A stretch of DNA of 64,000 nucleotides, taken from the NCBI RefSeq assembly GCF_900066015.1, contig NZ_LN890655.1, positions 2,830,726 through 2,894,725 on the forward strand, in the 5' to 3' direction. Below, one piece after another: positions 46,865 through 51,687 of the stretch. The DNA is from Candidatus Promineifilum breve. Its GTDB lineage: Bacteria > Chloroflexota > Anaerolineae > Promineifilales > Promineifilaceae. A program made the position numbers and the translations under genes. The notes below the pieces were generated by a model. The model had not been told where the DNA came from. It made no database searches and was given only the letters and a program-made list of their open reading frames with translations. Position 1 is the first letter of the stretch, and each line of letters begins with the position of its first letter.

Positions 46865-47185
46865 ATGAGCGTAGCCGATATTTTCAACAGCATGCCCGGC
46901 CGCTTCCAGGCCGACAAGGCCGCCGGGGCCAACATGAGCATCCTTTTCGATCTGAGCGGCGATGAAGGCGGGCAATACTACGTCAACATCGCCGACGGGC
47001 AACTGGCCGTGACCCCCGGCGCGCCGGCCGCCGCCCCCAGCGCCACGGTCAAGATGACGGCCGAGGATTTCGCGGGCATGTCGTCCGGCAGCCTGAACCC
47101 GATGATGGCCTTTATGACCGGCAAGATCAAGGTCGATGGCGACCTGAACTCGGTGATGAAGTTCCAGTCATTGGTCGGTTTCTAA
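46865..47185 (+). CDS. SCP2 sterol-binding-domain protein
   Basis: A 106-residue single SCP2 domain. It shows the expected pattern FQADKAAGANMSILFDLSGDEGGQYYVNIADGQL and the late VKMTAEDFAGMSSGSLNPMMAFMTGKIKVDGDLNSVMKF. The family binds lipids or hydrophobic ligands and is often linked to lipid metabolism. It has its own promoter, an aaggagag ribosome site and a strong terminator downstream, so it is monocistronic. The ligand cannot be predicted. Confidence 0.93.
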   Translation: MSVADIFNSMPGRFQADKAAGANMSILFDLSGDEGGQYYVNIADGQLAVTPGAPAAAPSATVKMTAEDFAGMSSGSLNPMMAFMTGKIKVDGDLNSVMKFQSLVGF

Positions 47186-47275: not shown

Positions 47276-49288
47276 TTATCCCGGCGTGGTGTCCTTCTCG
47301 TAGTTGGCACTGGTGGCGATCTCGGCGTATTCCCGCCGCTCGGCCCGGTCGAAGTCCAGGCCGCATTGCGCCACCAGTTCGGCGATCAGCCCGGCCTTGC
47401 GCTGGGCGTCGCTGCGCGACCAGGTGCGCGACTTGATCTCCAGGAAGTAGCCCGGCAACTCCGGCTCCAAGACCTTGTCCAGATTGATGGCGAAATCGGT
47501 GGCCTTGTAGAGAATGTGCCAGCGGTGGCGATCCTTATGGACGCGCAGTTCGCGGGCCGGGGCGAAATACTCCTGATAGAAGCGCAGGCTGCGGTCGGCC
47601 GCCGCCAGCCAGCGCGACCGCGACATCATCACCGCGTTGGGGAACTCCTCCCGGCCGCCCTCGCCGATGAGCGTCAGCCGCGCCCGCACCTGGGTCACGT
47701 CGCCGGCCTCATTGATGAACTCGTCCTCGCGATAGCGCAGGCGGTTGGCGTCGGGGTCGCCCTGGTCGAACAGGAAGTAGTGGTCGTATTGCCGGTAGTG
47801 GGCGTAGCGGGTGGTGGTGATGGCGCTGCTCTCCAGCAACATTTGCAGGGCGGTGTCGTCGGCCATCGGCACCTTCACCTGCACCTCGAAGCTCTCCTGG
47901 CGCTGGACGCCGGACAGTAGAACCAGCTTGTTATAGGGGCTGGATTCGCGCTCCATGACAAAGGCGTCGATGTCGGCGGCCACGCGCAGGGCGTCGGTGC
48001 GGGCGGCGGCTTCGTCCACGGTCAGCAGGGCGCGGTCGCGCATCAGCCAGCGGCCGTTGCAGATCACGTGGCTCACGTCGGCGCTCTTGCCGGCGTAGAC
48101 GATGCGCGAATAGACGGCGTCAGGGTGGTTGTGGAAATGGGGCTGGTTGTGGATGCCGCTCATATCGAGCACGGCGATGTCGGCCCGCTTGCCCGGCTCC
48201 AGACTGCCGGTGATGGCTCCCATGTGGACGGCCCGCGCCCCGCCGATGGTGGCGATCTCCAGCGTCTGGCGGGCGGGCAGGGCGGTGGGATTCTGGGCGG
48301 CGATCTTGGCGATGAACGACGCCAGCCGCATCTCCTCCACCATGTCCAGGTCGTTGTTGCTGGCCGGGCCGTCGGTGCCCACGCCGACCTTCAGCCCCAA
48401 TTTGAGCATCTGCGGGATAGGGGCGATGCCGCTGGCGAGCTTGAGATTGCTCGACGGGCAATGGGCCACGCCCGCGCCGGCTCGCCGCAGGCTGAACATA
48501 TCCTCTTCGTCGATGTGGACGCAATGGGCGGCCAGCAGCTTGGTATCGAGGATGCCGTGTTGCTCCAGCCAGGTGACGACCGACATGTGGTTCTGGTTGA
48601 CGCTGTTATCGGCCTCCAGCCGCGTCTCGCTGACGTGGGTGTGCAGCGGCACGTCGAAGGCGCGGGCCAGATCGGCGCAGGCTAGCAGCAGCTCCGGCGT
48701 GGCCGTATACCAGGCGTGGGGGGCCACGGCCGGCTGGATGAGCGGGTGGCCGTTCCAATGCTCGATGAAGCGGCGGCAGAGCAGCAGCGCGTCCTCGAAC
48801 GTCTCGGCGTCGGGCGCGGGGAAGACGAGGATGGTCTGGCCCAGCAGGGCGCGCATCCCGATCTCGGCCACCTGCTCGGCGATGGCCTCTTCATAATAGA
48901 ACATATCGGCGAAGGTGGTGACGCCGGAGCGAATCATCTCGGCGCAGGCCACGCGCGCCCCCAACTTGACGAAATCGGGCGTGACGAATTCGCGCTCGAC
49001 GGGCATCAGGTAGCCCAGCCAGACGTCGAGGCGCAGGTCGTCGTTGAGGCCGCGCATGAGGGTCATGGGGATGTGGGTGTGGGCGTTCACCAGGCCGGGC
49101 ATGATGACCGTGTCGGCGCACTCGACGGTTTCGGTGGCGGCATAGGCGCGGGTTATCTCGTCCGTCGGGCCGACGGCGATGATGGCATCGCCGCGAATGG
49201 CGACCGCGCCGTCCTCGAATACCTCGTACTTACCGTTCATCGTCACGACGGTTCCGCCGCGCAATAGAATGTCTACTTGTTCAGGCAT
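47276..49288 (-). CDS. Amidohydrolase (deaminase type) fused to a CYTH-like domain
   Basis: A 670-residue protein. Residues about 1-450 form a complete metal-dependent deaminase of the MtaD/SAH-deaminase/cytosine-deaminase group: NAHTHIPMTLMRG with the HxH ligands, APHAWYTATPELL, HTHVSETRLE, AAHCVHIDEEDM, AHCPSSNLKLASG and GTDGPASNNDLDM with the metal-binding Asp. Such enzymes deaminate adenosine-type compounds. Residues about 465-645 form a CYTH-like extension: FEVQVKVPM in place of ExExK, a middle Tyr/Phe and RLRYREDEF strand, RARLTLIGEG, and the end PGYFLEIKSR. CYTH domains act on triphosphates. The signature's second Glu is Gln here, so activity is uncertain. The next gene, divergently read, is a pyrimidine nucleoside phosphorylase, fitting a nucleoside-salvage context. 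Confidence 0.85.
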   Translation of the reverse strand: MPEQVDILLRGGTVVTMNGKYEVFEDGAVAIRGDAIIAVGPTDEITRAYAATETVECADTVIMPGLVNAHTHIPMTLMRGLNDDLRLDVWLGYLMPVEREFVTPDFVKLGARVACAEMIRSGVTTFADMFYYEEAIAEQVAEIGMRALLGQTILVFPAPDAETFEDALLLCRRFIEHWNGHPLIQPAVAPHAWYTATPELLLACADLARAFDVPLHTHVSETRLEADNSVNQNHMSVVTWLEQHGILDTKLLAAHCVHIDEEDMFSLRRAGAGVAHCPSSNLKLASGIAPIPQMLKLGLKVGVGTDGPASNNDLDMVEEMRLASFIAKIAAQNPTALPARQTLEIATIGGARAVHMGAITGSLEPGKRADIAVLDMSGIHNQPHFHNHPDAVYSRIVYAGKSADVSHVICNGRWLMRDRALLTVDEAAARTDALRVAADIDAFVMERESSPYNKLVLLSGVQRQESFEVQVKVPMADDTALQMLLESSAITTTRYAHYRQYDHYFLFDQGDPDANRLRYREDEFINEAGDVTQVRARLTLIGEGGREEFPNAVMMSRSRWLAAADRSLRFYQEYFAPARELRVHKDRHRWHILYKATDFAINLDKVLEPELPGYFLEIKSRTWSRSDAQRKAGLIAELVAQCGLDFDRAERREYAEIATSANYEKDTTPG

Positions 49289-49482: not shown

Positions 49483-50811
49483 ATGGCTGCAAAGACAAGA
49501 ATGGTCGATCTCATCGCCCGCAAGCGCGACGGCGGGGAATTGACCACGGCCGAGATCGACGGCTTCATCCACGACTACACCGCCGGGGACATCCCCGACT
49601 ATCAGGCCGCGGCGCTGCTGATGGCGATCTACCTGCGCGGCATGAACCGGCGCGAGACGGTCGATCTGACGCTGGCCATGGCTCACTCCGGCGACACGCT
49701 CGATCTCCACGACGTGGCCCCCTTCATCGTCGATAAACATTCGTCGGGCGGCGTGGGCGACAAGACCAGCCTGGTCGTGTTGCCCTTGGTGGCCGCGGCC
49801 GGCGCGCCGGTGGGCAAGATGAGCGGCCGGGGGCTGGGCAGCAGCGGCGGCACATTGGACAAGATGGAATCGTTCGCCGGGTGGTCGCCCACACTGACCC
49901 TGCCGCAGTTCAAGCGCCAACTGGCCGACATCGGTCTGGTGCTGGCCGGGCAGACCCACGACCTGGCCCCGGCCGACGGCAAGCTCTACGCCCTGCGCGA
50001 CGTGACGGCCACGGTCGATAACCGCGCCCTCATCGCCGCCTCGATCATGTCCAAGAAGCTGGCCGCCGGGGCCGACGCCATCGTGCTCGACGTGAAGACG
50101 GGCAGCGGCGCGTTCATGCCCACCGTGGCCGCGGCCGAAGAGTTGGCCCGGCTGATGGTCGAAATCGGCGAAGATGCCGGGCGGCGCGTCGTGGCTCTCA
50201 TCTCCGACATGAATCAGCCCTTGGGCCATGCCGTGGGCAACGCCCTGGAAGTGCGCGAGGCCCTCGACGCCCTGCGCGGCGGCGGCCCGGCCGACTTGTG
50301 GGCGCATTGCCGCGCCGTGGCCGGCCACATGCTGCTGCTGGCCGGCAAAGCGGACTCGCTGGGCGCGGCCGAGGCGCTGGTGGACGCGGCGCGGGCCGAC
50401 GGCCGCGGCCTGGCCAAGTTGCGCCAACTGGTCGTGGCCCAGGGGGGCGACGGCCGCCAGGTGGACGACCCCGACCGGCTGCCAAAGGCCCGCTACGTCG
50501 AGCCGATTGAGGCCAAACAGAGCGGCTACGTTACGGCGATGGACACGGCCGAGTTGGGCTGGGTGTGCGTACGCTGCGGCGGCGGCCGGCTGGTGAAGAG
50601 CGACGTGATCGCCCCCGGCGTGGGCTTCCTGTTGACGGTGAAGATTGGCGACCACATCGAGGCCGGGCAGGTCATCGGCGAGATGCACGCCGACGACGAC
50701 ATGACGCTGCAACAGGCGCAGCGCGACATCCCGGCGGCCCTCACCGTGGCCGACGACCCTGCGCCGCCACGGCCCTTATTTTATGCGACGATTGATGGAG
50801 AGAAGAATTAG
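49483..50811 (+). CDS. Pyrimidine-nucleoside/thymidine phosphorylase
   Basis: A 442-residue enzyme that splits pyrimidine nucleosides with phosphate to base and (deoxy)ribose-1-phosphate. Conserved: VDLIARKRDGGELTTAEIDGF, the phosphate-binding KHSSGGVGDKTSLV, the GRGLGSSGGTLDKMES signature, the lysine-bearing SIMSKKLAAGADAIVLDVKTGSGAFM, and the C-terminal barrel-sandwich domain with the final QIDYPAL-like region. Length is typical. A gagg site precedes the start. It lies divergent from an amidohydrolase and upstream of a glucokinase, suggesting salvage of nucleosides and sugar phosphates. Whether it is DeoA or Pdp cannot be settled by eye. Confidence 0.95.
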   Translation: MAAKTRMVDLIARKRDGGELTTAEIDGFIHDYTAGDIPDYQAAALLMAIYLRGMNRRETVDLTLAMAHSGDTLDLHDVAPFIVDKHSSGGVGDKTSLVVLPLVAAAGAPVGKMSGRGLGSSGGTLDKMESFAGWSPTLTLPQFKRQLADIGLVLAGQTHDLAPADGKLYALRDVTATVDNRALIAASIMSKKLAAGADAIVLDVKTGSGAFMPTVAAAEELARLMVEIGEDAGRRVVALISDMNQPLGHAVGNALEVREALDALRGGGPADLWAHCRAVAGHMLLLAGKADSLGAAEALVDAARADGRGLAKLRQLVVAQGGDGRQVDDPDRLPKARYVEPIEAKQSGYVTAMDTAELGWVCVRCGGGRLVKSDVIAPGVGFLLTVKIGDHIEAGQVIGEMHADDDMTLQQAQRDIPAALTVADDPAPPRPLFYATIDGEKN

Positions 50812-50892: not shown

Positions 50893-51687
50893 ATGGAGCT
50901 ACTAGGCATCGACATTGGTGGTTCGGGGATCAAGGGGGCCATCGTCAACGCGGCCACGGGCGAACTGGTGACCGAGCGGCTGCGTTTGCCGTCGCCGCCC
51001 ACGTTCCAGCCGGATGAGGTGGTGGCCGTCGTCGCCGATCTGGTGAAGCAATTCAACTATAGCGGCCCCATCGGCGTCGGCTTTCCGGGCGTGGTCATGC
51101 ACGGCACGGTCGTCGCCCCGCCCACGGCGCTGGCTTTCCCCAATTGGGTCGGTGTCAATCTGGCCGAGAGAGTGAGCGCGGCCGTGGGCTGCCCGGTCAC
51201 GGTGGGCAACGATGCCGACGTGGCCGCCATGGCCGAGATGTTTTTCGGCGCGGGACGGGGCGAGACGGGCGTGGTGATGATGTTCACCCTGGGCACGGGC
51301 ATCGGCAGCGCCCTGTTCATCAACGGCCACATCGTACCCAATACCGAGATGGGCCGCGTCTATCCGCGCGACAGCAAGAAAACCATCGAGCAACTGGCTT
51401 CCGACCGCGTTCGCGAGGAGCAGAAGCTAAGTTGGAAAGAGTGGGGCGAGAAGCTGAACGACTATTTCAAATATATCGAACTCCTCTTCTATCCCGACGT
51501 CATCATCATCGGCGGCGGCGTCAGCAAGAAGCATGAGAAGTTCTTCCCCCACATCAAGGTGCGGGCCAGACTGATACCGGCCGCCTTCCGCAACGAAGCC
51601 GGTATCGTCGGCGCGGCCATGGCTGCTCTGGACCAGATCGCCCCCCAGCCGTGGGAGTTGCCGGGTGCGGGGCATAGCGAGGGGTAA
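50893..51687 (+). CDS. ppgK: Polyphosphate glucokinase
   Basis: A 264-residue ROK-family kinase that phosphorylates glucose using polyphosphate (and in many cases ATP). It starts with the phosphate-binding [15 protein letters not shown] and has the sugar-binding [13 protein letters not shown], the [18 protein letters not shown] segment with the catalytic Asp, the [24 protein letters not shown] region and the PpgK-typical [39 protein letters not shown] taaggag ribosome site precedes the ATG. The ROK zinc Cys cluster is absent, as usual in this subfamily. It fits with the alpha-glucosidase at 18-20 kb in feeding glucose to glycolysis. Confidence 0.95.

Follow-up and report, generated by a model that had tools for sequence, protein, structure and literature searches.

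In the triphosphate tunnel enzymes YgiF and AtTTM3, the glutamates of the ExExK motif and the second glutamate of the ExE motif form an acidic patch that holds the catalytic metal 2, metal 1 is held by the first ExE glutamate together with the triphosphate, and hydrolysis is impaired when these acidic residues are mutated (PMC4641920). The tunnel of the polyphosphate polymerase Vtc4 has metal site 1 without site 2 and basic residues at the positions of the acidic-patch glutamates (PMC4641920). CYTH domains also occur joined to other domains: CHAD and a phosphoribulokinase-type domain are the partner domains of the ten largest clusters of the PF01928 network, and the plant proteins TTM1 and TTM2 combine a uridine kinase with a CYTH domain that lacks ExExK and ExE and keeps RxR (PMC8233210). 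The second family of relevance here comprises the MtaD and bacterial adenosine-deaminase amidohydrolases (4f0r, 4gbd, 4dzh, and TM0936), whose known MtaD-type members stop at ~440 amino acids and have no CYTH domain.

The window, i.e., the whole stretch of 64,000 nucleotides from Candidatus Promineifilum breve that was analyzed, encodes a protein that resembles these deaminases in residues 1–430, with all metal and catalytic residues present, and that, unlike them, also has a CYTH domain. The tunnel has the fold, the strand order, RxR, K-x-R, the strand-7 Asp, and the metal-1 Glu in common with YgiF, AtTTM3, SaTTM, CyaB, and ThTPase, but it differs from all of them by ExQxK, ExK, and a strand-5 Arg, and the catalytic metal-2 patch is thereby replaced. 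TTM1 and TTM2 are the closest parallel, as they likewise join a nucleoside-salvage enzyme to a CYTH domain without the acidic motifs. However, their partner is a kinase ahead of the tunnel and they occur in plants and amoebozoa, whereas here the partner is a deaminase of the amidohydrolase type in bacteria, and the changes are specific ones, from E to Q and from E to K. The protein resembles Vtc4 in its tunnel and differs from it in having neither SPX nor membrane parts. A literature search, mostly without subscription papers, found no relevant paper joining CYTH with amidohydrolase, deaminase, or Chloroflexi, and within the same scope no paper on sensor use of the CYTH fold. This fits the initial annotation, which had called the enzyme undescribed, although the architecture may already have entries in protein databases. 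Members that score below the Pfam cut-off, as the one in the window does, would not be expected in the PF01928 network.

One reading frame for a deaminase and a CYTH domain

A single open reading frame on the minus strand encodes both domains, at the very position from which the initial annotation had described it. Residue counts refer to 80 full-length relatives for the deaminase and to 82 non-redundant fusion proteins for the tunnel. The features of the frame and of its deaminase half are as follows:

47276..49288, minus strand: whole reading frame of the deaminase–CYTH fusion protein, 670 amino acids plus stop, ATG start
47999..49288, minus strand: MTA/SAH/adenosine-deaminase-type amidohydrolase, residues 1–430 (Pfam, PDB, Foldseek)
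49073..49081, minus strand: H70-x-H72, predicted deaminase metal ligands (alignment with 4f0r; H72 in 80/80, H70 in 79/80 with one X)
48626..48637, minus strand: H218 (metal) and E221 (catalytic acid/base) (4f0r alignment; invariant in 80/80)
48524..48526, minus strand: H255, active-site histidine of the deaminase (4f0r alignment; invariant in 80/80)
48371..48373, minus strand: D306, metal ligand of the deaminase in a GTDG motif (4f0r alignment; invariant in 80/80)
47912..48013, minus strand: helical linker between the domains, residues 426–459 (predicted helices 426–447 and 451–459; conservation)
47309..47896, minus strand: CYTH/triphosphate tunnel domain, residues 465–660 (Pfam, hhalign, model, PDB matches)

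The amidohydrolase (~1–430) is complete, as had been claimed from the sequence: residues 8–430 match the MTA/SAH deaminase 4f0r with an E-value of 3e-88, the Pfam Amidohydro_1 match has an E-value of 8.6e-75, and the best Foldseek matches of this half are adenosine/MTA deaminases with 37–38% identity. The amidohydrolase fold with its HxH, H, E, H, D active-site set is present in the window protein, and E98 aligns with P-x-E of 4f0r, a feature of the nucleoside-type site. On the basis of fold and active-site residues, we thus assign the protein to the MTA/SAH/adenosine deaminase-type amidohydrolases. The best NCBIfam scores were obtained with PRK09045 (443.9 of 540 bits), PRK06038, and 5'-deoxyadenosine deaminase; as all of them were below the equivalog cut-offs, the sequence by itself does not identify the substrate. 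Conserved residues of the linker are F443, R447-E448, and K454-L455, and the CYTH domain (~465–660) consists of eight main strands that are followed by C-terminal helices.

The same architecture occurs at 86–87% identity in Promineifilum and near relatives (L032–L036). Of 396 Anaerolineae genomes, 243 matched the extension, as did 62 of 301 genomes in a phylum-wide sample of Chloroflexota, among them members of families outside Anaerolineae, and three Riflebacteria genomes; the relatives come mostly from metagenome-assembled genomes. The extension is essentially always fused, in frames of ~650–840 residues, with few exceptions, which were inspected in part and some of which lie at contig ends. 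When the deaminase half was used for the search, homologues of at least ~50% identity were fused with the exception of a few short frames, and the next group, at 45% identity or less, was found in frames of 430–530 amino acids. Among the 80 full-length relatives, mean pairwise identity was 59% for the deaminase and 50% for the extension, and the distance matrices of the two domains agreed (Mantel r 0.87, 0/999 permutations). This pattern, as seen in the sequences, fits an old fusion that was inherited as one unit. A one-off fusion, an assembly error, or a motif mutation was ruled out by conservation in 82/82 proteins, which span many genera and include further Chloroflexota families as well as Riflebacteria.

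Fold and residues of the tunnel

When scanned alone against Pfam, the extension of the window protein matched only CYTH (PF01928; residues 468–622, E-value 4e-4) with 20.7 bits, which is under the cut-off of 23.2 bits. Pfam CYTH was, however, matched by the extensions of 15 of 24 relatives (best E-value 8e-7), and in genome searches with the CYTH model several fused relatives exceeded the cut-off with up to 36.7 bits. When the extension profile was compared by hhalign with that of free-standing CYTH proteins from the same class (13 sequences), the E-value was 1.1e-5 over 162 columns. As a sequence-profile search of the PDB with the extension gave only chance matches to eglin c, a fold search was needed, for which residues 441–670 were modeled with AlphaFold from the window sequence and 12 relatives (mean pLDDT 83.5). 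The best PDB match of this model was 2een (Z 17.2, 172 residues, 2.7 Å), and further matches were SaTTM (7ns9, Z 16.3), CyaB (3n0z, Z 15.4), plant TTM1 (7z67, Z 14.4), and mouse ThTPase (Z 13.3). Vtc4 was matched less well (Z 8.8) than the free-standing CYTH proteins, and the CYTH-fold Mediator subunits Med18 and Med20 were also found. The initial annotation would have had to be given up if no CYTH tunnel had been predicted; instead, sequence profiles, predicted fold, and conservation across the fusion proteins agree with the CYTH layout that it had proposed. Together, sequence similarity and the closed eight-stranded tunnel of the model place the extension in the CYTH/TTM superfamily, and a chance resemblance is ruled out by the Pfam scores of the relatives together with the hhalign result and the predicted fold. 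The full-length model was weak in the deaminase loops and came without inter-domain error, and it therefore gives no reliable arrangement of the domains.

Sixteen tunnel residues are invariant in 82/82 proteins (E468, Q470, K472, D502, Y504, R518, R520, R569, K585, R587, R589, D604, E617, K619, W623, and D627). The motifs to which the comparison refers are:

47873..47887, minus strand: E468-x-Q470-x-K472, at the CYTH hallmark ExExK (82/82; alignment with free-standing CYTH proteins)
47729..47737, minus strand: R518-x-R520, putative triphosphate-binding RxR (82/82; R59-x-R61 of free-standing CYTH proteins)
47612..47620, minus strand: R557-x-R559, strand-5 acid changed to Arg (R559 in 79/82; R85-x-E87 in free-standing CYTH proteins)
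47522..47536, minus strand: K585-x-R587-x-R589, tunnel strand 6, which is basic (82/82; R587 aligned with the invariant R117 of free-standing CYTH proteins)
47477..47479, minus strand: D604, at the invariant CYTH strand-7 Asp (82/82; alignment)
47432..47440, minus strand: E617-x-K619, at the ExE of CYTH strand 8 (82/82; metal-1 Glu kept, acidic-patch Glu changed to Lys)

In the alignment with free-standing CYTH proteins, Q470 stands for the second Glu of ExExK and K619 for the second Glu of ExE, whereas Glu occupies these two positions, and the first ExE position as well, in all 13 free-standing proteins of the same class. The reading of ExExK as ExQxK in the initial annotation was thus correct, and beyond it we found that ExQxK is invariant in all 82 proteins, which makes it, as judged by this conservation, a signature of the fusion family, and that the ExE motif reads E617-x-K619. 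The acidic ExExK and ExE motifs by which catalytic TTM proteins hold metal 2 are hence replaced by ExQxK and ExK throughout, whereas the RxR, the K-x-R, and the metal-1 Glu for the triphosphate are present as R518, R520, K585, R587, and E617, again in 82/82. According to the alignment, the pattern is therefore one in which the residues for triphosphate and metal 1 were kept and those for the catalytic metal 2 were replaced. As R518, R520, K472, K585, R587, D604, and E617 are invariant, the tunnel appears to be under strong selection and not decaying.

Two known activities were considered and rejected. Class IV adenylyl cyclases (CyaB) are defined by the motif HFxxxxExExK (PMC8233210), which is absent here, as QRQESF without HF precedes E468. 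Thiamine triphosphatases have W/Y-x-R-x-R, whereas position 516 of the fusion proteins is R in 73/82 and aromatic (Y) in 2/82. In all relatives, there is also an LRFYxEYF helix (568–575) and an RTWS...D...K stretch (621–631), both invariant or nearly so, at ~47396–47587 of the window on the minus strand, which lie outside the usual CYTH motifs and possibly form a lid or a domain-contact surface.

A candidate regulatory tunnel and its alternatives

Computation shows here that the two domains are fused and inherited together, that the extension has the tunnel fold, that the residues of the deaminase are intact, and that the acidic patch is altered while the basic residues remain. That hydrolysis is lost, that the tunnel binds a ligand, that it regulates the deaminase, and which substrate is used exactly is what we infer. 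Our best explanation, to which we give a chance just above even, is that a metal-dependent nucleoside deaminase is under the control of a fused CYTH tunnel that binds triphosphate without hydrolyzing it. The deaminase half would most likely convert adenosine to inosine. The tunnel would have lost hydrolysis and would bind, together with a single metal ion, a ligand resembling triphosphate; ATP or another NTP, inorganic triphosphate, and the end of a polyphosphate chain are candidates for this ligand. Binding may then be relayed via the helical linker (426–459) and switch or tune the deaminase, by which the breakdown of adenosine made by SAH hydrolase would be tied to phosphate or energy status. 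The initial annotation had left open a nucleotide-metabolism or a regulatory enzyme, and the residue pattern favors the latter, because ligands of the catalytic metal are replaced and the triphosphate-binding residues are kept. It counts against this explanation that the Lys of the canonical T-x-K is mostly absent from the tunnel, as most relatives have Thr or a hydrophobic amino acid at position 541. The more general claim that this widespread bacterial family senses ATP, triphosphate, or polyphosphate allosterically by a tunnel that has lost its catalytic metal site through specific E-to-Q and E-to-K changes, and thereby controls nucleoside deamination, is made tentatively, with a likelihood somewhat below even.

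Loss of the motifs does not prove that all catalysis is lost, as plant TTM1 and TTM2 lack both ExExK and ExE and are nevertheless reported to cleave pyrophosphate (PMC8233210). The protein could thus be bifunctional, with a tunnel that remains catalytic by altered chemistry beside the deaminase, as a TTM1/TTM2-like pyrophosphatase or in a Vtc4-like one-metal handling of polyphosphate. Vtc4p, which has only the first metal site, carries basic residues at the positions of all four acidic-patch glutamates of AtTTM3 (PMC4641920), and these resemble K619 and R559 of the fusion protein; the strict invariance of the tunnel residues would fit catalysis as well. However, two or three acidic-patch positions are altered in every relative, and such mutations impair hydrolysis in the TTM proteins studied. 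Moreover, Vtc4 requires a catalytic lysine (Lys-458) for which no counterpart was identified in the fusion, and its structural likeness is below that of the free-standing CYTH proteins. We therefore regard a bifunctional enzyme as unlikely, at somewhat less than one chance in four.

A still less probable alternative is a CYTH domain that is purely structural and serves as a ligand-free module for oligomerization or as an active-site lid, similar to the CYTH-fold Mediator subunits. Med18 and Med20, which are not known to be enzymes, were among the fold matches, and the LRFYxEYF helix and W623 may be contact surfaces, but a structural domain would not need the invariant triphosphate-binding set K472, R518, R520, R587, D604, and E617. 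Least probable of all, and rather doubtful, is a tunnel that holds a phosphorylated nucleoside, with a deaminase that uses a phosphorylated substrate or with two sites that hand on an intermediate: both domains handle nucleoside-type ligands and are strictly co-inherited, but the deaminase keeps its nucleoside-type site including E98, and in the neighborhoods of relatives no enzyme that makes or uses such an intermediate is consistently beside the gene.

The preferred reading, a deaminase controlled by a non-hydrolyzing tunnel, makes the family a clear and conserved case for testing whether the triphosphate tunnel fold, which is known for its enzymes, can act as a sensor module. If this reading is true, turnover of purine nucleosides is coupled to the status of phosphate or energy in a phylum that is large and little studied. 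It also suggests that labels such as 'adenylate cyclase' or 'CYTH' on such proteins should not be taken as catalytic activity.

Substrate and gene neighborhood

The genome of the window encodes SahH together with MTAP and an inosine/guanosine phosphorylase (PNP), no PF00962 adenosine deaminase was found in it, and the fusion protein is its only MtaD-type deaminase at E-values up to 1e-60. The fusion protein is thus the best candidate for the conversion of adenosine to inosine, the step that is required between SahH and the phosphorylase, and from this pathway context adenosine is the likeliest substrate. 5'-Deoxyadenosine, MTA, or SAH are perhaps deaminated as well, but the presence of SahH in 57 of 60 sampled genomes weakens SAH as the sole substrate.

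Two genes near the fusion in the window are related to nucleosides or polyphosphate:

49483–50811, plus strand: pyrimidine-nucleoside/thymidine phosphorylase, divergent neighbor of the fusion
50893–51687, plus strand: polyphosphate glucokinase (polyphosphate-glucose phosphotransferase), NCBIfam 275.8 of 250 bits and thus over the cut-off

The phosphorylase adjoins the fusion also in the relatives' loci L032, L033, L035, L036, L041, and L053, whereas it is not the neighbor in most lineages, and the polyphosphate glucokinase, two genes from the fusion, is also nearby in L032, L033, and L035. As neighbors differ among lineages, we rejected the gene neighborhood as a functional guide and did not use it as main evidence. 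In other Anaerolineae (L052:1019-2947, L057:7673-9916, L060:3094-5265, and L064:3302-5335), the fusion is divergent from a gene for a 640–750-amino-acid protein, the L052 copy of which has a C-terminal endonuclease/exonuclease/phosphatase domain, and an FHA-domain regulator is near the fusion in L052, L060, and L064. On its other side in the window, the fusion gene is convergent with a gene at 46865–47185 (plus strand) for a 106-amino-acid protein that is SCP2-like by eye, without an NCBIfam match, and that is found at the same spot in many same-family relatives.
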